Positions 25,813 to 35,762 are shown, counted from the first letter of the stretch. The stretch is 64,000 bases of DNA from Candidatus Korarchaeum sp. (GCA_038888615.1 JAWAID010000001.1:372001-436000); one strand, 5' to 3'. Translations and numbers: made by a program. The notes: generated from the letters alone by a model not told the origin.

Positions 25813-25886
25813 GCGGCCGTAGTCTAGCCTGGACAGGATGGGGGCCTGCCACGTCCCAGACCCGGGTTCAAATCCCGGCGGCCGCA
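25813..25886 (+). tRNA. tRNA-Gly (GCC)
   Basis: Acceptor GCGGCCG/CGGCCGC, anticodon stem GGGGC/GTCCC with one G-U pair around CTGCCAC, anticodon GCC, T-arm CCGGG TTCAAAT CCCGG, discriminator A. The next three bases (25887-25889) are CCA, the only tRNA in the window where this occurs; it may be chance. Confidence 0.95.
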
Positions 25887-26044
25887 CCATCGGACGAATC
25901 TCCACATATGTGAGTTTGTAATGGATAGCCTCATGAGGATATTTGTATATCTCTACCGAGAAACTTCTATATAATTTTCGCGCAAGAGCCCCATTACTCC
26001 TATAAATTTTACTGAAATTTAAGCCCTCTGAAGTTTCTCACTGG

Positions 26045-28105
26045 ATGTGTATGCGATACACATACGCATTGCCCTTCCTCATCGGTTTATCCTTACTCCT
26101 AGCCATGCTACCTGTCTCCTGTAACAGATGCTGGGGATCCGTTCACCTCAGCGCGAGTGTCCCAGGGGCTGTGAAGCCGGGGCAGAGGATAGACTTCCAC
26201 GGATGGATCGAGGGAGGATGCGAGTGCGGTGGTGCGTGTAGTGTGGGCGTAAGCTGTGCTAACGGTGAGAGGACGTATACAGATAGTGGCGCTACGAGTA
26301 AGCGTGGCTACTGTATAGTGAAAGATGTCCCAGGAGGTGAGTTCTACGTATGCGCAAGCGGGAGCTGTCAGGGGCCTCAATGCGGACCTGGAGATATCCC
26401 GGGAAGCACTGGACCATTGTCCGAATGCTCTAATAGAGCTTACATAGTGAGCGTCCCCTCCTTCTCGGTCTCAGCCAGCCCAACCACCTTACCGAAGAAG
26501 GGGAACCTGAACGTGCAAGTCACAGGACTTACAGATGATGGGAAGGGAACGATAACGGTGACTGCTGAGCTAGGAGGAAAGAGCTACACGTTAAGCCCTT
26601 CCGGGGGAACGATGGAGTACGATCTCAGGAACGTGCCAGCCGGTCCCCTGACGTTGACTGTGACAGCAACGAAGAGTTATGCGGGGGTAACCGACTCTAA
26701 GGGTAAATCAATTAGCCTCACGCTTCTCGGCTCTAAGCCTAGCATAACCGTGAATATCCCTGAAGAGATAAGGAGGGGGGATAAGGTCACCACATCGGTA
26801 GATGAGCCCGATGGGGATGATGTCACGGCGAAACTCACAATCGCCGGTAGAACAGTTGAGCTGGGTAAGGGGAGCAATGAGATTACCATAGACCTTCCTA
26901 AGGGAAGCTACGCACTAAATATAGAGGCTAGCGACGTTGATGGTACGGAAAGTAAGAGCTATACCATAAAGGTCCTTGGATCTCCTCCGAGCATAAGCAT
27001 GAACGTTCCCAGCGAGCTCAAGAGGGGCGAGGCCTTCACTTTGGTAGTCAGTGAGGGGGACGGTGATGAGGTAAGCGGCACCCTAACCTTAGGTGGTAGG
27101 AGCTTCGAGTTGAGGAAGGGGGAGAACACGATAGTTGTGCCGGCAGACCTCAAGGCTGGGGATTACAGTGTTCATGCAGTCGTTAAGGACTCTGACGGTC
27201 AGAGTGAAGCCTTAGCTTCATTCAAGCTATTGAATCAGGAGCCCATGGTTTCCCTAAGCGTCGATAGGACTGAGCTCAATGTCGGTGATGTGCTTGGAAT
27301 AAGAGTTGAGGCGAGCGACGATGCACCGGGATTGATGGTCAAAACTCAGGTGGGCGATGTGGTTTTCGAGGGCACCGGGACCTTTGAGTACACTCCCAAG
27401 AGCCCTGGGAACCTCGGGATCAGATCAATAGCTGTTGATATGGATGGGGCAACGTCAGAAGCCGAACTAAGCGTTAATGTGAAGCCCTCAAGCCCCTCAG
27501 GTGGATCAAGTAGTAGCTCCTCAAGTAGCTCAGGTGGATCAAGCCCCTCAGGTGGATCAAGTAGCCCGAGTAGTCCTGGAAACGTATCGACTAACAGGAC
27601 CACCACGAAAACTAACGTATCGACTAGCGGGACCACCTCGAAATCAACTGGTACTCCCTCTAAACCAACGTCGGTGAGCGTGGTCATAGAGGTAGAGCCC
27701 CCCGAACCCTACGTGGGGGATGAGGTAACTGTAAGGGTCATCACGAGGGCTAGTGGGCTCCTACAGATAATAGAACCAGAAGGGAAAGTATCGCTGGACA
27801 CAGGGAAGCTCCAAATACGCTTCAGGGTGGATAAGCCTGGCACGTGGCTGGCTAAATTCATATACAAGGAGGGGAGCGACGTGAAGGTGGTCAGTAAGGG
27901 ATTCTCCGTGAGGGTAGTCGAAGAGGTTAAGTCAGCCGAGCCCCCTGAAGCAGAACCCCTAGTTGGTGGATCTGAATCGATAAGGAGCTTTGAAGCGAGT
28001 TGCATTATGGTGAGAAGCCAGGAGGTCTCTAACTTCCCATGGGTTTACCTAGTTCCCCTGTTAATAGCATTACTCCTGATCGCTAGGAGGAGGGTCTCGG
28101 GATGA
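26045..28105 (+). CDS. Large Cys-rich, Ig-like surface protein with C-terminal anchor
   Basis: 686 residues. A hydrophobic signal segment (about 8-24) is followed by a cysteine-dense domain to about residue 130 with more than a dozen Cys (e.g. GGCECGGACSVGVSC). Four similar beta-sandwich modules then run from about 145 to 480, with recurring phrases such as ASDVDGT, VKDSDGQ and VDMDGAT at their ends and KPSITVNIP, PPSISMNVP and EPMVSLSV at their beginnings. A Ser/Gly/Thr-rich linker (about 480-560) with three N-glycosylation sequons, another beta domain, and a C-terminal membrane helix ending RRR complete it. Probably an adhesin or pilus-associated cell-surface protein. No specific family recognised. 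The stop overlaps the next ATG. Confidence 0.8.
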   Translation: MCMRYTYALPFLIGLSLLLAMLPVSCNRCWGSVHLSASVPGAVKPGQRIDFHGWIEGGCECGGACSVGVSCANGERTYTDSGATSKRGYCIVKDVPGGEFYVCASGSCQGPQCGPGDIPGSTGPLSECSNRAYIVSVPSFSVSASPTTLPKKGNLNVQVTGLTDDGKGTITVTAELGGKSYTLSPSGGTMEYDLRNVPAGPLTLTVTATKSYAGVTDSKGKSISLTLLGSKPSITVNIPEEIRRGDKVTTSVDEPDGDDVTAKLTIAGRTVELGKGSNEITIDLPKGSYALNIEASDVDGTESKSYTIKVLGSPPSISMNVPSELKRGEAFTLVVSEGDGDEVSGTLTLGGRSFELRKGENTIVVPADLKAGDYSVHAVVKDSDGQSEALASFKLLNQEPMVSLSVDRTELNVGDVLGIRVEASDDAPGLMVKTQVGDVVFEGTGTFEYTPKSPGNLGIRSIAVDMDGATSEAELSVNVKPSSPSGGSSSSSSSSSGGSSPSGGSSSPSSPGNVSTNRTTTKTNVSTSGTTSKSTGTPSKPTSVSVVIEVEPPEPYVGDEVTVRVITRASGLLQIIEPEGKVSLDTGKLQIRFRVDKPGTWLAKFIYKEGSDVKVVSKGFSVRVVEEVKSAEPPEAEPLVGGSESIRSFEASCIMVRSQEVSNFPWVYLVPLLIALLLIARRRVSG
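27491..27564 (+). repeat. Short repeats encoding the Ser-Gly linker
   Basis: AGCCCCTCAGGTGGATCAAG occurs at 27491 and again at 27542, with a third partial copy (CTCAGGTGGATCAAG) between them at about 27529. They encode the S-P-S-G-G-S-S pattern of the surface protein linker and may vary in number by slippage. Confidence 0.75.
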
Positions 28106-28788
28106 GGAAGCTACCCACACTCCTCGCCCTCCTGGGGGTCCTGGTGATACTGGCATCCCTATCCCTCCCCCCACCTCTCTGGAGGAAGGTGGGTGTAGTT
28201 GAGAGGGGGACCTACGAGCTCTTTCGGTGTAACGCCAGCTACTTGGTATTAAGGGTTAACGTAACTCCGTGCATCTCGGCTTACGATATTCACGCTGAAC
28301 CCCTGGGTTCAGGGAACGAGCTCGAGCTCAACGCTACACAGCCTATGATAGTGGCTAGCGGTGAAACAGCTTTCGAACTCAGGAGAGAGGATGAGGAGCT
28401 GAGGGGCAACTACGTACTCGAGGACGGTGGCGTTATAATACCCGCAGAGCGTGGTAACTATGGGCTAAGCGTCAAGGGGAAGGAGGTAGAGGTTTACGAT
28501 ATTAAGAGCATTAGAAAGTTGAATTTAGCTATTGAGAAGATCGAGGACAGGTATAAGATATATTGTACGAGTGAGAGGGGCTTTTTCATTGAGGCAAACC
28601 CATTCATTTTGATTCGTGGTTCAGGTGATATGAGCTATGAGGTGGAGGCTTACGGGGAGGTACCTAACACGTTACTGCTTCTCCTGGGTGTAGTCTCGCT
28701 GACCTCCGCGATGGTGAGCAGGTATGCTCCTGAGTCAAGAGGAGGAGAGGGCGAATCAGCTAGCGGAGAGTCTCCTGAGGAGGTATAA
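28102..28788 (+). CDS. Membrane-anchored protein of the pilus-like locus
   Basis: 228 residues with a hydrophobic helix near the N-terminus (about 5-25) and another at about 188-208, so most of the protein (about 30-185) would face outside. That part is beta-rich with three cysteines (FRCNAS, TPCISA, IYCTSE) and possible N-glycosylation sites. The C-terminal tail is Glu/Ser-rich and cytoplasmic. ATG overlaps the previous stop (ATGA). No family recognised; perhaps an assembly platform partner or minor component. Confidence 0.72.
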   Translation: MRKLPTLLALLGVLVILASLSLPPPLWRKVGVVERGTYELFRCNASYLVLRVNVTPCISAYDIHAEPLGSGNELELNATQPMIVASGETAFELRREDEELRGNYVLEDGGVIIPAERGNYGLSVKGKEVEVYDIKSIRKLNLAIEKIEDRYKIYCTSERGFFIEANPFILIRGSGDMSYEVEAYGEVPNTLLLLLGVVSLTSAMVSRYAPESRGGEGESASGESPEEV

Positions 28789-30289
28789 GGATAGGGCCCT
28801 CAGGGCCAGCTTCGGTGAGTTAAGCAGGAGGGAGAGGATAGCTAAAACCATAAAAAGCTCTCGTAGACTGAGGAGATTAGCTAAAGAGCTATACCTTTTA
28901 CTCGCGCTGGATTTAATAGATAAGGCCCTGAAGGGGTCTCGACTCATGAGGAAGCTGATCGGCTCACTCAGCTCAGAATCGGTGAGATCGTTTTCCTCTT
29001 TCGAGGGGGCTGAGGCAGATGTAACGGCTGTTACCCCCGAGGGTTTAACTCTCGATTTTCCCGGGGGAGTTCTGAAGCTGATTGAGAGGACGAAGGAAGG
29101 TTACTTGGCTAAAGCCTACCCGAGGAGCCACATTAGTGGGAATCTCCTTCAGGCTCAGATCCTGGCTAGGATGCTCAAGGGTATATATCCACGGAACTAC
29201 TCGGACCAGGGGGACCTCCTGTGGAAGAGCGTCCTCCTGAGGATTGATAAAGCACGTGAACTACTGAAGGACTTTGATGTGAGTGATCCTGAGGGCCTTG
29301 CCCTAGAATCAGCTCTTAGATCAACGAAGCTCTGGCCTATATTAGCTATTCTAATGGCCGAGGACTGCACGGAAGCTTATGCTCAGTTAGGTGGGAACCT
29401 AATAATCGAGCACGTTCTCTACGGGAGGATAAGAGTAGTGAATTACGTGTTCGATGAGGAGGACCTGAGGAAGTTCATTACTTTCATTGAGGCCGATCCC
29501 AATGCCGGATTTGAGTTCAGGAAGAGCTTGGCTGAGGTTGATCTTAAGCTAGCTGATCATAAGTTCCGCATAGCCTTGGACGTGCCCCCCAGCTCCAGAG
29601 GGGCCCTGGATGTGAGAAGCTTGAGCGCCATGAGGAAGCTCAGTCTCCCAAGACTGATAAGGTTAGGGACTCTGAGCAAGGAGGAGGCTAGCATCATACT
29701 TGAGAACATTGAAGATGGATTTCCAGTGCTTATATTCGGAAGAACAGGAGTAGGGAAGACTACGTTAGCTAACGCGATCCTTGCGATTCTCCCTAGAGAC
29801 TGGAGGTTGATAAGCGTTGAGGAGGTTCGTGAGATTGAGGATCTCAGTGTTTATGGGATGCACCACAGCCCTTATGAGGTGCCACGTGAGAAGCTAGACT
29901 TCATACGCTTCCTCCTTCATAGGAATCCGTATTTAATCTTCCTAGGTGAGATATTAACTAAGGAACAAGCTGAGGCTTTCTCACTCGCTTATGCATCAGG
30001 TCTAAGGGTGATAGCTACCTCTCACGCTAGGAGCTACGAGGGCTTGACCGAGAAGTGGAGGGGCTGGGGACTCGAGATCCCCGAGGGGACGCTGGGGGTA
30101 CTTATGGAAAGGAGGAGGATATTGAGGATGATGAAGTGGGAGGGAGCTTGGATTCCAGCTGAAGCGAACGGAAACTGGATTCCCTTCCTTGAGATGCTCA
30201 AAGATGCTCAAACGAACGAGGAGGTGGCTGAGCGTATATGCGAGCTAGAGGGTCTGCGGAAAGCAGGACGATCAGCTTACTTAAGCTGA
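28724..30289 (+). CDS. Type II/IV secretion ATPase (VirB11/TadA-like)
   Basis: 521 residues. Walker A is GRTGVGKTT at about 343-351, followed by a VEEVREIEDL Asp-box-like segment, a Walker B-like YLIFLGEIL (normally VGEVR), and a His-box-like GLRVIATSHARS. These are the elements of hexameric ATPases that drive type IV pili, archaella and secretion. The N-terminal 130 residues are charged and helical. It starts 65 bases inside the previous gene, with no good start after it. It probably powers assembly of the small pilin-like proteins encoded downstream. Divergent from well-known archaeal PilB or FlaI types. Confidence 0.85.
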   Translation: MLLSQEEERANQLAESLLRRYKDRALRASFGELSRRERIAKTIKSSRRLRRLAKELYLLLALDLIDKALKGSRLMRKLIGSLSSESVRSFSSFEGAEADVTAVTPEGLTLDFPGGVLKLIERTKEGYLAKAYPRSHISGNLLQAQILARMLKGIYPRNYSDQGDLLWKSVLLRIDKARELLKDFDVSDPEGLALESALRSTKLWPILAILMAEDCTEAYAQLGGNLIIEHVLYGRIRVVNYVFDEEDLRKFITFIEADPNAGFEFRKSLAEVDLKLADHKFRIALDVPPSSRGALDVRSLSAMRKLSLPRLIRLGTLSKEEASIILENIEDGFPVLIFGRTGVGKTTLANAILAILPRDWRLISVEEVREIEDLSVYGMHHSPYEVPREKLDFIRFLLHRNPYLIFLGEILTKEQAEAFSLAYASGLRVIATSHARSYEGLTEKWRGWGLEIPEGTLGVLMERRRILRMMKWEGAWIPAEANGNWIPFLEMLKDAQTNEEVAERICELEGLRKAGRSAYLS

Positions 30290-31146
30290 CTCAGGACTTC
30301 GTCATAGGTTTGAGTGCTAGCTTATCATCTGGCTTGGAGGCCATAGGCTGCTATCAGCAGGTAGCCGTTGAGGGTGTTTCCGCGAGTGAGACCGTCTACA
30401 GGAGGCTGGGTAGAATGAGAAAATACTTAGCTGGACTCCTTGAGGGAGGTGATGAAAGGGCTAGCTCTGAAGTAGCGATGAAATTGTTGAGCAGACTTTA
30501 CGAGATAGACCTAGAGAGCAGGCAGAGGTGGATCCAGCTCAGCGTATCGTTAGCCATAACCTTGAGCCTCACAGCTAGTCTCCTCTCCTTCTACCACTTA
30601 CATCTAGATCCATTGCTCCCCCTCATACTTCTCCCCCTCTACTTCCTCCTTCCCAGCTTCACTCCTCTGGAGATTCCCGATCCCGCTTCTGCAGAAGCTA
30701 TTGCAAGTGATTTAGAATTGGGAAGCGGGATCATCTACGCTCTAAGGCATCTGGGGATATACGAGAGGACGGTAGTTGATGAGGAGCCTAAAGTGCCCAC
30801 CTACTTCGAGTATGCTATGAGGATAGCGAGCAGGGATGCAACAGCGAGCCTGATGAGGAGGACCGCTAACATGCTCAAGGACCTAGGATCCATAATCGAT
30901 TCGTGGCGCGCCGGCATGAAGGCTCTGAGGAAACTCTTAATTTTCTTAGTGGCTCTCTCAGCCGGAATAAACTTAGCCGTATACGTCGTAAGCGGGAAGG
31001 TATTTGGGGAAGCCCCTTTAGGCTTCCTCTTTACTTCAGGACTGGTATCTTCCCTTCTCGCTTCAAAACCCATGAATTGTCCCGTAGAATCCGCCCTAGC
31101 TTATACAACGGTTTTCACTATCGGGAAGATGATCCTGGGAATATGA
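30238..31146 (+). CDS. Polytopic membrane protein, TadC-like candidate
   Basis: 302 residues. About five membrane helices: two near 98-140, one near 228-247 and two in the last 50 residues, with a cytoplasmic helical region between and before them. This layout and its position right after a secretion ATPase (52-base overlap) suggest the TadC/PilC/FlaJ platform protein, reduced in size. The similarity is structural only; I see no diagnostic motif. Confidence 0.6.
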   Translation: MRARGSAESRTISLLKLTQDFVIGLSASLSSGLEAIGCYQQVAVEGVSASETVYRRLGRMRKYLAGLLEGGDERASSEVAMKLLSRLYEIDLESRQRWIQLSVSLAITLSLTASLLSFYHLHLDPLLPLILLPLYFLLPSFTPLEIPDPASAEAIASDLELGSGIIYALRHLGIYERTVVDEEPKVPTYFEYAMRIASRDATASLMRRTANMLKDLGSIIDSWRAGMKALRKLLIFLVALSAGINLAVYVVSGKVFGEAPLGFLFTSGLVSSLLASKPMNCPVESALAYTTVFTIGKMILGI

Positions 31147-31164
31147 AAAAAGGGAGGGTTGGAT

Positions 31165-31401
31165 CTAAGGCCTCGTGGTCGTGGTGGTCATATTGTTACT
31201 CGGTGAAGTCTCCTTCTTCCCGAAGATCACGCTATCTATCGATTCATAGAACCAGTTAATGAAGTTGTTCCAATTCTCCCAAGCCTTGCTCGCGGCATCG
31301 CTCACCATACTCGTGACTCCCTCCGCGATCATGAGAGGTCCGGCTATCACGAGAGCTATGGTCAGTAGGACGAGGATTATCGTCTCCATCGTGTTGATCA
31401 T
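31165..31401 (-). CDS. Small membrane protein, opposite strand within pilus-like locus
   Basis: 78 residues: a single hydrophobic helix (METIILVLLTIALVIAG), then an amphipathic aromatic stretch (WENWNNFINWFYES) and a Thr-rich tail (MTTTTTRP). Class III-pilin-like or a small regulator are both possible; no family recognised. It converges with the TadC-like gene and diverges from the chain of small ORFs, with its own AT-rich promoter region at about 31455-31468. Confidence 0.6.
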   Translation of the reverse strand: MINTMETIILVLLTIALVIAGPLMIAEGVTSMVSDAASKAWENWNNFINWFYESIDSVIFGKKETSPSNNMTTTTTRP

Positions 31402-31524
31402 GTTCCCTTAGGAGGGCTAAGCGATGGCCTTAAACCTTGAAAACGTCTTTAAAAGTTTTATAATTTAGTTGTAGGATCACATAAATATTACGGATTTTTC
31501 TGGGAAAACGATGGTATCATTGCG

Positions 31525-31650
31525 ATGAAGCCCCTAATGGTACTAGCGATTGGGACACCCTTCCTCCTCCTGGTGTTAACGACGCATGCGCAAGCCTACC
31601 CCCTCGCCGTCGCCCTCATATGGCTAGCCCTCTGGGGGTCTAACAGATGA
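31525..31650 (+). CDS. 41-residue membrane protein
   Basis: MKPLMVLAIG begins an almost wholly hydrophobic chain of 41 residues, with a polar break HAQAYP in the middle and a second short hydrophobic run ending WGSNR. Its TGA overlaps the ATG of the following gene (ATGA), which supports translation. A TAAATATT box about 36-45 bases upstream could start this operon. Function unknown. Confidence 0.5.
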   Translation: MKPLMVLAIGTPFLLLVLTTHAQAYPLAVALIWLALWGSNR

Positions 31651-32045
31651 TACTCTCGGCTGAGAGGGTAATGCTCGCGGTGATAGGCATCGCCCTGATA
31701 TTGACTACCCTAAGTTCATTAACTCCTCAGATGAGGGAGATAGAGGGAAAAAGAGATGAGAATTGCTTGAATACCGCTCTTAGAAGCGTTGATCTCGCTA
31801 TAACTAACGCAATAGGGGGAGGTGTTGCGGAGGGATATGTCTTTCTCCCCGTCAAGGTCAGTTATGAATGCAGCGGCGGTACTGTGAGGCTTAGTGCAGG
31901 AAACAAGAGCGCCTCCCTTAGCTATCCGTTCAGGTTGATCTGTGGCGGTGAGGCTTACCTGGCTGGGAAGTTTCACGCCAGCTGGAGAAGGGATGCGAGG
32001 GGTGAAGCCGAGTTAATCCTGAGCTGGTCGGGTGTTAGGGGATGA
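31647..32045 (+). CDS. Pilin-like secreted protein, 132 residues
   Basis: N-terminal charged-then-hydrophobic segment (SAERVMLAVIGIALILTTL) followed by a soluble beta-rich domain with three cysteines (ENCLN, YECSG, LICGG). Resembles type IV pilin or pseudopilin architecture, though no class III signal peptidase site is clearly identifiable. Start and stop both overlap neighbours by four bases. Confidence 0.65.
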   Translation: MILSAERVMLAVIGIALILTTLSSLTPQMREIEGKRDENCLNTALRSVDLAITNAIGGGVAEGYVFLPVKVSYECSGGTVRLSAGNKSASLSYPFRLICGGEAYLAGKFHASWRRDARGEAELILSWSGVRG

Positions 32046-32260
32046 TAGAAGCTAGTAAGGAGGTAGTGCTCACGATAATAATGCTGCTCCTTTTAGCCTC
32101 GATATCCCTCATCCTTGAGCTGACATCATCGATGATAGCTGAGGGTAACTGTAAGCAAGTAAAGGAGATAGCTGAGGAGATTAGAAGACTTTCAAGCTCT
32201 CTCAGGATCGATGCTGATAGTTATGCTACTAGAATGGAGCGTGATTCTTGTGGAAGCTGA
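32042..32260 (+). CDS. Pilin-like small protein, 72 residues
   Basis: IEASKEVVLTIIMLLLLASIS is an N-terminal membrane helix with an acidic residue just before it, as in type IV pilins, followed by a helical charged tail with two cysteines (EGNCKQV, DSCGS). ATG overlaps the previous TGA. Unknown family. Confidence 0.62.
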   Translation: MIEASKEVVLTIIMLLLLASISLILELTSSMIAEGNCKQVKEIAEEIRRLSSSLRIDADSYATRMERDSCGS

Positions 32261-32321
32261 TTTAGAGTTCTTGATAACTGCTTCAGTCTTCTTGGTTTTG
32301 CTGATCTGGGTGTTGGTATGA
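32241..32321 (+). CDS. 26-residue membrane peptide
   Basis: GTG at 32241 (or 32250) opens a short frame, EADLEFLITASVFLVLLIWV, which is a polar head followed by a single hydrophobic helix. The stop overlaps the following ATG (ATGA at 32318), filling the only gap in an otherwise continuous chain of overlapping genes. Small size leaves it tentative. Confidence 0.4.
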   Translation: MILVEADLEFLITASVFLVLLIWVLV

Positions 32322-32620
32322 GGTGGGCTCTAGCGATGATCTCCTCCCTTCTAATCATCTCATCAGCGCTCCTGAGGCCTATCTCAATTCATCTAGGCTA
32401 TCAAGTCATTTGGAAGGAGGAGGTTTGTGGTAAAGCGTTGAACATCTTGAGGGACCGAGGATATAGGTTGTTAATAAGGGGTACTCTCGAATCGGAGCTT
32501 GGAGCTGAATCTGATATTAAGGCTGAGCTGACCGAGCACTGTAATTCCTTCAGGCAGGCTTACTGCCTCGTAATTCCCGGAACGAGTCCCCTAAAATTCC
32601 TGAAGGTGGAGAGAGGATGA
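32318..32620 (+). CDS. Pilin-like secreted protein, 100 residues
   Basis: N-terminal hydrophobic helix (ALAMISSLLIISSALL) and a soluble domain with three cysteines (EEVCGK, TEHCNS, AYCLV). The stop overlaps the next ATG. Same architecture as its neighbours but no sequence family recognised. Confidence 0.62.
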   Translation: MRWALAMISSLLIISSALLRPISIHLGYQVIWKEEVCGKALNILRDRGYRLLIRGTLESELGAESDIKAELTEHCNSFRQAYCLVIPGTSPLKFLKVERG

Positions 32621-33429
32621 GGGAAGCACTAATAATGATTTCAGCCTTCGCTATCGCTTCATTCATAATATTAGTTATCGAATCCGAGGTTCAGCCCGAG
32701 TATTACGAATATAAGGGGAAGCTAAGGATAAATCAACTTTACGCAGAGCTCGAGTCCGTCGAGCCGAGAGCTATGATATACGCTCGCTCTCAGGTAGATA
32801 GCTTCCTGGCATCTGTTAACGGAACAGCCTGCGAGTTGGATCCTGTGATAGATCCCAACATGTTCAGCGAGGCAATCAATGAGGATTTAGGGTATAAGGG
32901 TTTCCTGAGCTCCATCGATCTAAAGTTCTCCGTCTTTGAGACGGAGGGGGGTGGTGCTTCGAGTGAGTACTTCGGGAGCTACTGCAGGAAAGGAGGAATA
33001 GGAGTTAGGGTAAAGGGCGAGGTCTCGATAGAGGATGAATTGATTGAGATCAGGGGAAGGAGAGCTTTTGAAAGCGTTGGATGTCAGCAGACAGCATACT
33101 ACGCCATGAAGGAAGCATTGAGCTGGCTCGAATCGGAAATCAAGGCGGGTGTTGAGGAGGCCTCGGGGAAGCTTCCTAATGTGACGAGGTTTTGGGAAAC
33201 TCTAAATAGAAAGTTGAATCAAGTTATGGTCTCCTTTAGGGAGACCTATCCGGGGCTTGAGCTTCGATTGAGGTGTGAGAAGGACTTCTATCTGGAGGGA
33301 GGTGAGCTCAAGGCACTAGTACGCTTCACACTCACACTGAAGGATCCTGAGGGCCTCTTCATAAAGAGCGGTGAGGAGAGGAAGGGCTTCTGGTGCGTGA
33401 GGGAGGTAGTAGTCGTTGCGGGAAGGTGA
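32617..33429 (+). CDS. Secreted N-anchored protein, 270 residues
   Basis: The largest of the chain. N-terminal helix (ALIMISAFAIASFIILVI), then an extracellular domain of about 240 residues with five cysteines (TACEL, SYCRK, VGCQQT, LRCEKD, FWCVRE) and a long helical middle part (SWLESEIKAGVEEASG). May be a large minor pilin or tip subunit. No family recognised. Confidence 0.65.
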   Translation: MREALIMISAFAIASFIILVIESEVQPEYYEYKGKLRINQLYAELESVEPRAMIYARSQVDSFLASVNGTACELDPVIDPNMFSEAINEDLGYKGFLSSIDLKFSVFETEGGGASSEYFGSYCRKGGIGVRVKGEVSIEDELIEIRGRRAFESVGCQQTAYYAMKEALSWLESEIKAGVEEASGKLPNVTRFWETLNRKLNQVMVSFRETYPGLELRLRCEKDFYLEGGELKALVRFTLTLKDPEGLFIKSGEERKGFWCVREVVVVAGR

Positions 33430-33652
33430 TTTCCTTAGTACTTTTAGTAAAATTTTTAGTATAATACTCCACGAAGTGATTGAAATTCTAAAAATAACGT
33501 GGCCCACTATAAAATCTTTACTCCTAGCTACATCCGCACTACTGGCGTTGATCGGTCTAGTGGCCTGGGCGGTCCTCGAGGATAGGAAGGCACTTTCCTA
33601 CTCCCTAATCACTTGCGCACTCGTAGCAATGCTTGATATACTACTCACATGA
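33416..33652 (+). CDS. Small two-helix membrane protein
   Basis: 78 residues from a TTG start that overlaps the previous gene by 14 bases. Amphipathic N-terminus (FSKIFSIILHEVIEILK), then membrane helices at about 35-55 and 63-77. The ILKITWPT phrase before the first helix faintly recalls SecE, but there are two helices and no other Sec gene here, so I leave it unassigned. Last gene of the chain. Confidence 0.55.
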   Translation: MREGDFLSTFSKIFSIILHEVIEILKITWPTIKSLLLATSALLALIGLVAWAVLEDRKALSYSLITCALVAMLDILLT

Positions 33653-33678: not shown

Positions 33679-34164
33679 TCACTGGGAGACCGATCTTGAG
33701 AGAGCCCATCTCATGAAGCTAAGTGTTCTATCCAAGTCCTTGGGATCCCTCAGCCTCACTTTCAGCAGCTTCAATATCCCCTTGGGATCCTCCTCCACCT
33801 CGATCTCACCATTCAACTCCTCTATTTTCCTGAACAAGAATTTGATGGGCCTTTCCCTAACGCTTATCGTCACCTTCTCCTCAGGGAGAAAGGATAGCTC
33901 CAGCCTATCCTTGCTAAGTCTTAGACTCCCGAGCAACTTGCCTCCTTCTGAGTAGAAACTTCTCTCCTCAACCTTAGCTTCAACATGGCCCTCAGCTCCC
34001 CTGAGCTTATCGGCAGTCACAAGAGTTTGCTCAAGGAGGACTTCGTCTAAAGATTCTATCATCCTCCTGAGGGAGATCAACTCCCTCTCGAGTTTCTCCA
34101 CCCTCCTCTTGAGGAATTCTCTGAGCATGAGTAAGTTCTTTATCCTTTCATCCCTCTCTGACAT
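33679..34164 (-). CDS. Coiled-coil protein of unknown function
   Basis: 161 residues. The first 50 or so form a charged coiled coil (LKRRVEKLERELISLRRMIE); the rest is beta-rich with many acidic and basic residues. No family recognised, no signal or membrane segment. Overlaps the lysS 3' end by 25 bases, so co-transcription is likely. Confidence 0.65.
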   Translation of the reverse strand: MSERDERIKNLLMLREFLKRRVEKLERELISLRRMIESLDEVLLEQTLVTADKLRGAEGHVEAKVEERSFYSEGGKLLGSLRLSKDRLELSFLPEEKVTISVRERPIKFLFRKIEELNGEIEVEEDPKGILKLLKVRLRDPKDLDRTLSFMRWALSRSVSQ

Positions 34165-35762
34165 CTCCCCTCAATGGACCTAACCCATATCTCCTTAAAT
34201 CTTTGTACCCCTAACCTGCAGACCAGCGGCCCCAGCCTCGGTCCTTGAGGTTGGCCCAACAGCACCGTATATATAGCTGAGAAGAAGTCCTTCGGGGAAA
34301 TATTCATCCTCCTGATCACATCAAAAGCCTTATTTTGTATCTCATTAGCACTCATCCCCGATTCTATTTCCTCTATGAAGGAATTAATAGCTTCAATGAT
34401 CCTCTCATCTATCTCACTCACGTTTCCGCTTCCCGAGCCAAAGTGCCTCGCGTAGTTGTGGGCATAGTTAACGTAACTCCTGAAGAGAGGATCCCTCATC
34501 AAATAATCCTTGCTAAGATCGTAATACTTCGAGATGAGGTCAGTAGCTATACTGAACACTTCCTCAAATGCGAGGTCCCTCGGGAGCATGGATACCACGC
34601 TTAGGACAGCCGTGTACCTGTAGGGTGGGGGGCTAGGTACTCCCTCCATCAGGTAGGTGAACTCCATCAACCTCCGCAAGGTCATCCTGTCCCTCTCGCT
34701 ACTCACCCTCTCGATGCCGTGGTACCTCCTTAGGTTCAGTTCCAGCTCGTTAACGTAAAGAGGGCTCTTCTGGAGAGAGATACTCCTAGTTCCGTGGTAC
34801 CTCTTGAACATAAGCATCCTGAGGGCTTCAGGGGGGGATAACTCCATCCACATTTGAGGGGTTATGACGTTCCCAGCGCTCTTACTTATCTTCCTCCCAG
34901 TCCTATCGAGGAACATCTCGTACCTCACGGTCAGAGGGGGCTCGTATCCTAGAACCTCCCTAGCTATCCTCGAGTTGACTCTGAAGGAATCAGCTATGTC
35001 CTTCCCATGGGGCTCGAATACAATCCCCAGAGCAGACCACCTAGCGGCGAACTCGCCCTTCCAAGAGAGCTTACCCTCACCCCTTAAGTAACTCGCCTCA
35101 CCGACGTATCCGCATCCCTTAACCCCCTTGAATCCCTGATCACAGGAGTAAACGAGTTTCCCCTCCTCCGGGATCGCTTTAATCACCCTAGTGGTGTATA
35201 TCCTCCCGCAGTTCTCACATTTAGGCCAGTAGTAGATCCATCCCTCCGGCTTACTGGACCCGACCTCCTCCCTGACTATGCTGTCCACCTTTCGACTTTC
35301 CCCGATCAACTTCCCAATCTGCTCATCTAAGAGACCCGATCTGTAGGCCTCGGTCCCGGAGACGAAAGTGAACTCAACCCCTAGCTTCTCCAGAGCATCT
35401 ATCAGTATGGAGCTCATATGCTCTCCGTAGCTGGAGTGACAGTTGAATGGATCAGGTATCTCACTCACGGGCATACCTAAGTACTTACTGTAATCCTCCG
35501 GTATGCCCGCCGGGACCTTCCTCAGGCCATCCCTATCGTCACTGTAAGCTATCAGCTCACTCCTGTATCCCAGGCTCTCTAAAGCCAGTTTAACACCGTA
35601 AGCCCTTAAAGAATCACCAGCGGATCCTATATGCGGAAATCCACTAGCTCCTATTCCAGATTCCACCCTTAAAATACTTAAATTTCTATTTAGCTTCTTC
35701 TCCCTCTCAATTACGTTCTTAGCTATCGTGTCGATCCAGAACGCAGAAACAGCTTCCTCCAT
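34140..35762 (-). CDS. lysS: Lysyl-tRNA synthetase, class I
   Basis: 540 residues. The class I signatures are PHIGSAGD for HIGH and KISKSAGN for KMSKS. A zinc-binding insertion with CENCGR and CDQGF...GCG is present, and the C-terminal half is an alpha-helical cage. Class I LysRS is typical of archaea. ATG follows GGGGGCTGATC. A TTTTTAAAG box lies at about 35808-35817. Confidence 0.95.
   Translation of the reverse strand: MEEAVSAFWIDTIAKNVIEREKKLNRNLSILRVESGIGASGFPHIGSAGDSLRAYGVKLALESLGYRSELIAYSDDRDGLRKVPAGIPEDYSKYLGMPVSEIPDPFNCHSSYGEHMSSILIDALEKLGVEFTFVSGTEAYRSGLLDEQIGKLIGESRKVDSIVREEVGSSKPEGWIYYWPKCENCGRIYTTRVIKAIPEEGKLVYSCDQGFKGVKGCGYVGEASYLRGEGKLSWKGEFAARWSALGIVFEPHGKDIADSFRVNSRIAREVLGYEPPLTVRYEMFLDRTGRKISKSAGNVITPQMWMELSPPEALRMLMFKRYHGTRSISLQKSPLYVNELELNLRRYHGIERVSSERDRMTLRRLMEFTYLMEGVPSPPPYRYTAVLSVVSMLPRDLAFEEVFSIATDLISKYYDLSKDYLMRDPLFRSYVNYAHNYARHFGSGSGNVSEIDERIIEAINSFIEEIESGMSANEIQNKAFDVIRRMNISPKDFFSAIYTVLLGQPQGPRLGPLVCRLGVQRFKEIWVRSIEGRCQRGMKG

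Follow-up and report, generated by a model that had tools for sequence, protein, structure and literature searches.

Cleavage of the leader by a prepilin peptidase is regarded as essential to the assembly of type IV filaments and as one of its defining steps. Among described systems, the nearest to the locus considered here are the Epd-like archaeal type IV pili (T4P; clade 1, PMC4858521) and the bacterial Tad pili, which it resembles in its small, Flp-size major pilin candidate. For Epd/Tad systems, separate genes for two platform subunits have been described, along with an A24 peptidase and a MinD-like ATPase next to the assembly ATPase (PMC6668835). The subclade 4G T4P of Pyrobaculum and Thermoproteus (PMC4858521) share with our locus a divergent ATPase and platform, many minor pilins, multiple conserved cysteines and a large C-terminally anchored surface protein, although they belong to a different phylum and the likeness is one of description. 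The same 2016 census included Korarchaeota, described these cysteine-rich Pyrobaculum and Thermoproteus loci and already stated the disulfide idea for them (PMC4858521). Finally, ArlF and ArlG of the archaellum are likewise pilin-like, N-anchored proteins without a class III signal peptide, and polymerisation of ArlG does not require PibD (PMC8978795); they are, however, stator parts of a rotary motor, and our locus lacks the archaellum gene set.

Here, we describe a gene cluster in a 64,000-nucleotide stretch (the ‘window’) of the 1.67-Mb genome of a heat-loving archaeon, Candidatus Korarchaeum sp. (GCA_038888615.1). By homology and gene order, this gene set belongs, as a divergent member, to the type IV filament superfamily of archaea, in which it stands closest to Epd/Tad-like pili. 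The initial annotation had proposed a pilus-like machine with disulfide-strengthened parts outside the archaellum, bindosome and UV-pilus gene sets, and this proposal is supported; the further suggestion of an undescribed kind of machine does not, given that homologues elsewhere in the phylum place the set within that superfamily. As a system, the set is of a known kind; what is new is the loss of a pilin leader and a fused, minimal platform. For an archaeal group whose cell biology has hardly been studied, the locus in addition offers a view of the surface machinery, with an unusually compact platform protein.

Gene content and assembly machinery

The cluster lies between a tRNA gene and a lysyl-tRNA synthetase-like gene, and comprises the following features (coordinates in the window; + and − denote strand).

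25813-25889: tRNA-Gly (GCC) gene, directly upstream of the pilus-like cluster
26045..28105, +: protein A, 686-aa surface protein (PF00801 PKD match; orthologues)
28102..28788, +: protein B, 228 aa (alignment; cysteine comparison)
28724..30289, +: VirB11/TadA-type assembly ATPase, 521 aa (PF00437; relatives across the phylum)
30238..31146, +: putative membrane platform, 302 aa, two fused T2SSF-like subunits (alignment of the halves)
31165..31401, −: major pilin candidate, 78 aa, without leader peptide (homology to leadered Flp-like pilins)
31525..31650, +: 41-aa single-helix peptide (genus-wide conservation)
31647..32045, +: C, 132-aa leaderless minor pilin-like subunit (phylum-wide family; structure model)
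32042..32260, +: D, 72-aa N-anchored subunit (homologues by position and sequence)
32250..32321, +: E, single-helix subunit of about 23-26 aa (GTG start assumed)
32318..32620, +: F, 100-aa N-anchored subunit with two invariant cysteines (homologues; cysteine comparison)
32617..33429, +: G, 270-aa N-anchored subunit, the largest of the cassette (phylum-wide alignment; cysteine comparison)
33416..33652, +: H, 78 aa, two or three membrane helices (alignment with congeners)
34140-35762: class I lysyl-tRNA synthetase-like gene on the other flank (read from the sequence)

All of the genes annotated earlier at 26045-33652 (686, 228, 521, 302, 41, 132, 72, 100 and 270 aa, and an open reading frame [ORF] of roughly 26 aa) were recovered at their coordinates, and the 78-aa minus-strand ORF at 31165-31401, between the platform and the chain of small proteins, had been overlooked, as had the fused nature of the platform and the lost leader. 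The description of that chain as mostly N-anchored is retained, except for the last ORF (33416-33652), which probably encodes a membrane protein with two helices instead of an N-anchored pilin. In other congeners (L037-L043, L150-L157), the genes for A, B, the ATPase and the platform adjoin SMC-like and ScpA/ScpB-like genes, with the minor-pilin cassette and the major pilin located elsewhere; all parts occur together only in the clade of the window.

Both motifs on which the ATPase had first been recognised (GRTGVGKTT and TSHARS) are present, and its assignment to the T2SSE family is upheld by PF00437 (41.3 bits, against a Pfam cut-off of 24.9). Homologues are found across the phylum. Scores against the NCBIfam equivalogs for FlaI, TadA, VirB11 and BasE all fall far below their cut-offs (e.g. 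49.7 bits against 550 for FlaI/ArlI and 21 bits against 1000 for BasE), and a scan of the named genomes with the single ATPase sequence gave no match. We do not argue for Tad ancestry from the ATPase because the bacterial homologues that we inspected lie in TrbB-like conjugation loci, not in Tad loci. One other protein of the genome matches PF00437 (532 aa, C1:129655); we did not take it for a further pilus motor, as it has no platform or pilin-like neighbours.

The 302-aa membrane protein beside the ATPase is, judged by profile alignment, a fusion of two small platform subunits. Its N-terminal half aligns with subunit 1 of the sister genera (hhalign 95.9%) and its C-terminal half with subunit 2 (97.0%), without cross-match. 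These subunits are encoded by separate genes in the sister-genus loci L044, L045, L046 and L056, where the ATPase is accompanied by both of them, by an A24-type peptidase and by a leadered Flp-like pilin of 91-96 aa; L044 additionally holds a MinD-like ATPase. In these features the sister genera correspond to Epd/Tad systems as described above, whereas the window has a single fused platform protein, a peptidase encoded outside the locus and a pilin without a leader. Subunit 1 of the sister genera matches PF00482 (T2SSF) at E 7e-4 to 1.4e-3, below the curated cut-off. The window protein itself matched no Pfam family, its model had no fold match in the PDB, and a search with its profile returned matches to unrelated proteins only. 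The platform assignment, made via the sister-genus subunits and the weak T2SSF match of subunit 1, is therefore indirect but consistent.

Taken together with the subunits described below, we consider it probable that the locus encodes a divergent, Epd/Tad-like version of the archaeal T4P machine, driven by ATP, in which the major pilin is leaderless and the minor pilins form a complex braced by disulfides. In such a machine, the ATPase would drive the minimal fused platform, which would extract the 78-aa major pilin from the membrane into the filament; C, D, E, F and G would form the disulfide-braced complex that starts or caps the filament; and A and B may serve as wall-spanning guides or adhesins.

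The major pilin candidate and its leader

The 78-aa protein is homologous to the leadered Flp-like pilins of the sister genera, of which the L044 orthologue matches PF04964 at E 0.019 (under the cut-off). It is kept in the three nearest genomes (64, 44 and 44% identity), and a profile of its family finds one strong match per near-complete Korarchaeum genome. Leaders in the sister genera have 18-21 residues and end in DERG or DESG; those in most other congeners have 6-8 residues (e.g. MRRRRG before VTGTLEQALLIA), with the start uncertain in a few. In four species (G000, which is the window genome, G010, G011 and G012) the leader is absent, the start Met occupies mature position 1, and the N-termini (M-INTMETIIL, M-QQTIETILL, M-LNTVETVIL) carry Glu at residue 6, as in leadered relatives. 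A class III leader with a prepilin-peptidase site is accordingly present in the major pilins of the sister genera and other congeners and absent from both the window candidate and subunit C; the FlaK-site search suggested in the initial annotation fails on the pilin candidates of the window.

A missing leader could also reflect a misread start codon, with translation beginning upstream and the pilin being processed normally, and G011 does have an in-frame ATG 8 codons upstream. In the other three species, however, in-frame stops lie 2 (G000), 4 (G010) and 10 (G012) codons upstream of the pilin ATG with no ATG, GTG or TTG between, and one of these genomes is a single contig. Identity, moreover, collapses at the ATG: in an ungapped comparison of G010 with G012, 19 of the 60 nt before it are identical (near chance) against 42 of the first 45 nt after it, and any reading frame shared by the window and G011 is interrupted by a 5-nt gap immediately before the ATG. 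We find a misread start hardly credible and regard loss of the leader of the 78-aa pilin candidate as well supported by these comparisons. The ATPase tree unites the four leaderless species in one clade (support 99/98), nested within a genus that otherwise retains the leader, so a single loss suffices; the four species have one ATPase of this family, most congeners two. As a context control, pilin-like ORFs were judged by eye in 20 loci around T4P ATPases of other archaea: a leader was visible in most of those listed, the exceptions including short ArlF/ArlG-like proteins. A literature search, narrow in phrasing and partial in coverage, returned no leaderless pilins.

Whether such a pilin is assembled without cleavage is a separate matter. 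With the initiator Met at mature position 1, the protein could insert N-in/C-out and be assembled without the action of a prepilin peptidase. We put at about even the chances that the locus makes a type IV pilus from a major pilin that is already mature when translated and enters the filament without peptidase processing, cleavage being dispensable for its assembly. The main evidence against full peptidase independence is a retained A24 peptidase: the window genome encodes an orphan enzyme of 226 aa (L099:4723-5403; G000 C2) as a standalone gene (PF01478, 31.4 bits) with both catalytic Asp motifs, and a peptidase that appears catalytically plausible from its sequence is kept in 4/4 leaderless genomes. 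This persistence implies that another substrate exists. No EppA-type 9-TM peptidase was found at the window locus, the 226-aa enzyme being the only A24 found; in G002, a relative occurs within another T4P locus (L164), which is a conventional one.

That other substrate may be the true filament subunit, a leadered pilin encoded elsewhere and cut by the standalone A24 enzyme, in which case the 78-aa protein would be a short stalk or stator subunit like ArlG. The retained Asp motifs and the precedent of ArlF and ArlG, with their lack of a signal peptide and the PibD-independent polymerisation of ArlG, fit such an arrangement. However, orthologues with a leader, from both sister genera and congeners, resemble ordinary Flp-size major pilins, and the major-pilin family profile finds one member in the window genome (E <= 1; this family only). 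We regard the stalk as unlikely and favour the 78-aa protein as the probable major pilin. A graded natural series of leaders within one family, with a leaderless pilin at its end, would make the purpose of cleavage directly testable, be it orientation, insertion or release of an assembly-competent N-terminus.

Minor subunits, surface proteins and cysteines

The C-D-E-F-G gene order is the same in distantly related genomes of the phylum, often with longer versions of D, E and F. The profile of C matched every phylum genome of at least 80% completeness (E 9e-44 to 6e-5) and gave no match in 12 other archaea. Structure prediction had been proposed as a check for a pilin fold, and its outcome for C is divided: the model (pLDDT 90.2) has the outline of a pilin, with an N-terminal helix of 51 residues leading into a sheet of five strands, but no significant match among solved structures in the PDB. 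C is leaderless in all genomes with a clear start. We therefore dropped the idea that all of the small proteins lost their leaders recently, C being leaderless throughout the phylum, as ArlF and ArlG are elsewhere. At the position of E, a similar helix is found in ten loci of the genus, and distant loci encode 45-85 aa at this place. Conserved counterparts of the 41-aa peptide (31525-31650), 41-56 aa long, precede C throughout the genus.

Protein A has a signal peptide, Ig/PKD-like repeats (PF00801 PKD, 30.3 bits, above cut-off), a Ser-rich stretch and a C-terminal membrane anchor, with orthologues in nine genomes; B has a membrane helix at either terminus, and its three cysteines are conserved. 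Cysteine conservation was compared across six members of the genus, and for A across seven genomes. The cysteine counts first reported were broadly correct, and conservation is above chance: 3/3 cysteines are conserved in the 228-aa protein, 4/5 in the 270-aa protein and 2/3 in the 100-aa protein; in the 132-aa C, C40 is conserved and C75 and C99 are lost together in one species; and the pair in the 72-aa D is likewise lost together. The ‘more than a dozen’ cysteines attributed to A hold for its near relatives, with only C29 and C653 conserved in 7/7 genomes. The cytosolic ATPase has two cysteines, and the six-genome comparison shows conservation of neither. With the outward cysteines mostly conserved and lost in pairs, and those of the ATPase not conserved, the pattern supports, short of proof, the formation of disulfides by the former.

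Protein H recalls the CedA1 and TedC pilins of conjugative-type pili (PMC9905601), being alike in size and number of helices, with or without a signal peptide. In other congeners, its relatives have a signal peptide of the Sec type with an AxA-like end (MKALIYSALVVLLLITPLAVKAQ; L150:3327-3620), as does TedC (PMC9905601). The locus could accordingly be a machine for export or DNA exchange, in which H is a second pilin of the VirB2/CedA1/TedC type and the rest a secretion apparatus. The TrbB-like setting of the inspected bacterial ATPase homologues would agree with this, as would the TrbC/VirB2 match of one of seven H relatives, which is sub-threshold at E 0.013. The six other relatives, however, gave no TrbC match, H itself had no PDB match and no significant sequence match to CedA1 or TedC, and no VirB4/CedB or VirB6/CedA partner was seen at the locus. 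We consider such a machine very improbable beside a type IV filament, and keep the identification of H as VirB2/TrbC as a lead only. The Sec-type signal peptide of H (33416-33652) was lost in the same four-species clade as the pilin leader.

Several pilin-like ORFs in the second T4P locus of another genome, G001 (L165:2550-8971), also begin at the hydrophobic helix (e.g. MQITVEKVVWIALVL, with a TTG start), which suggests that leaderless subunits may be common in the phylum.
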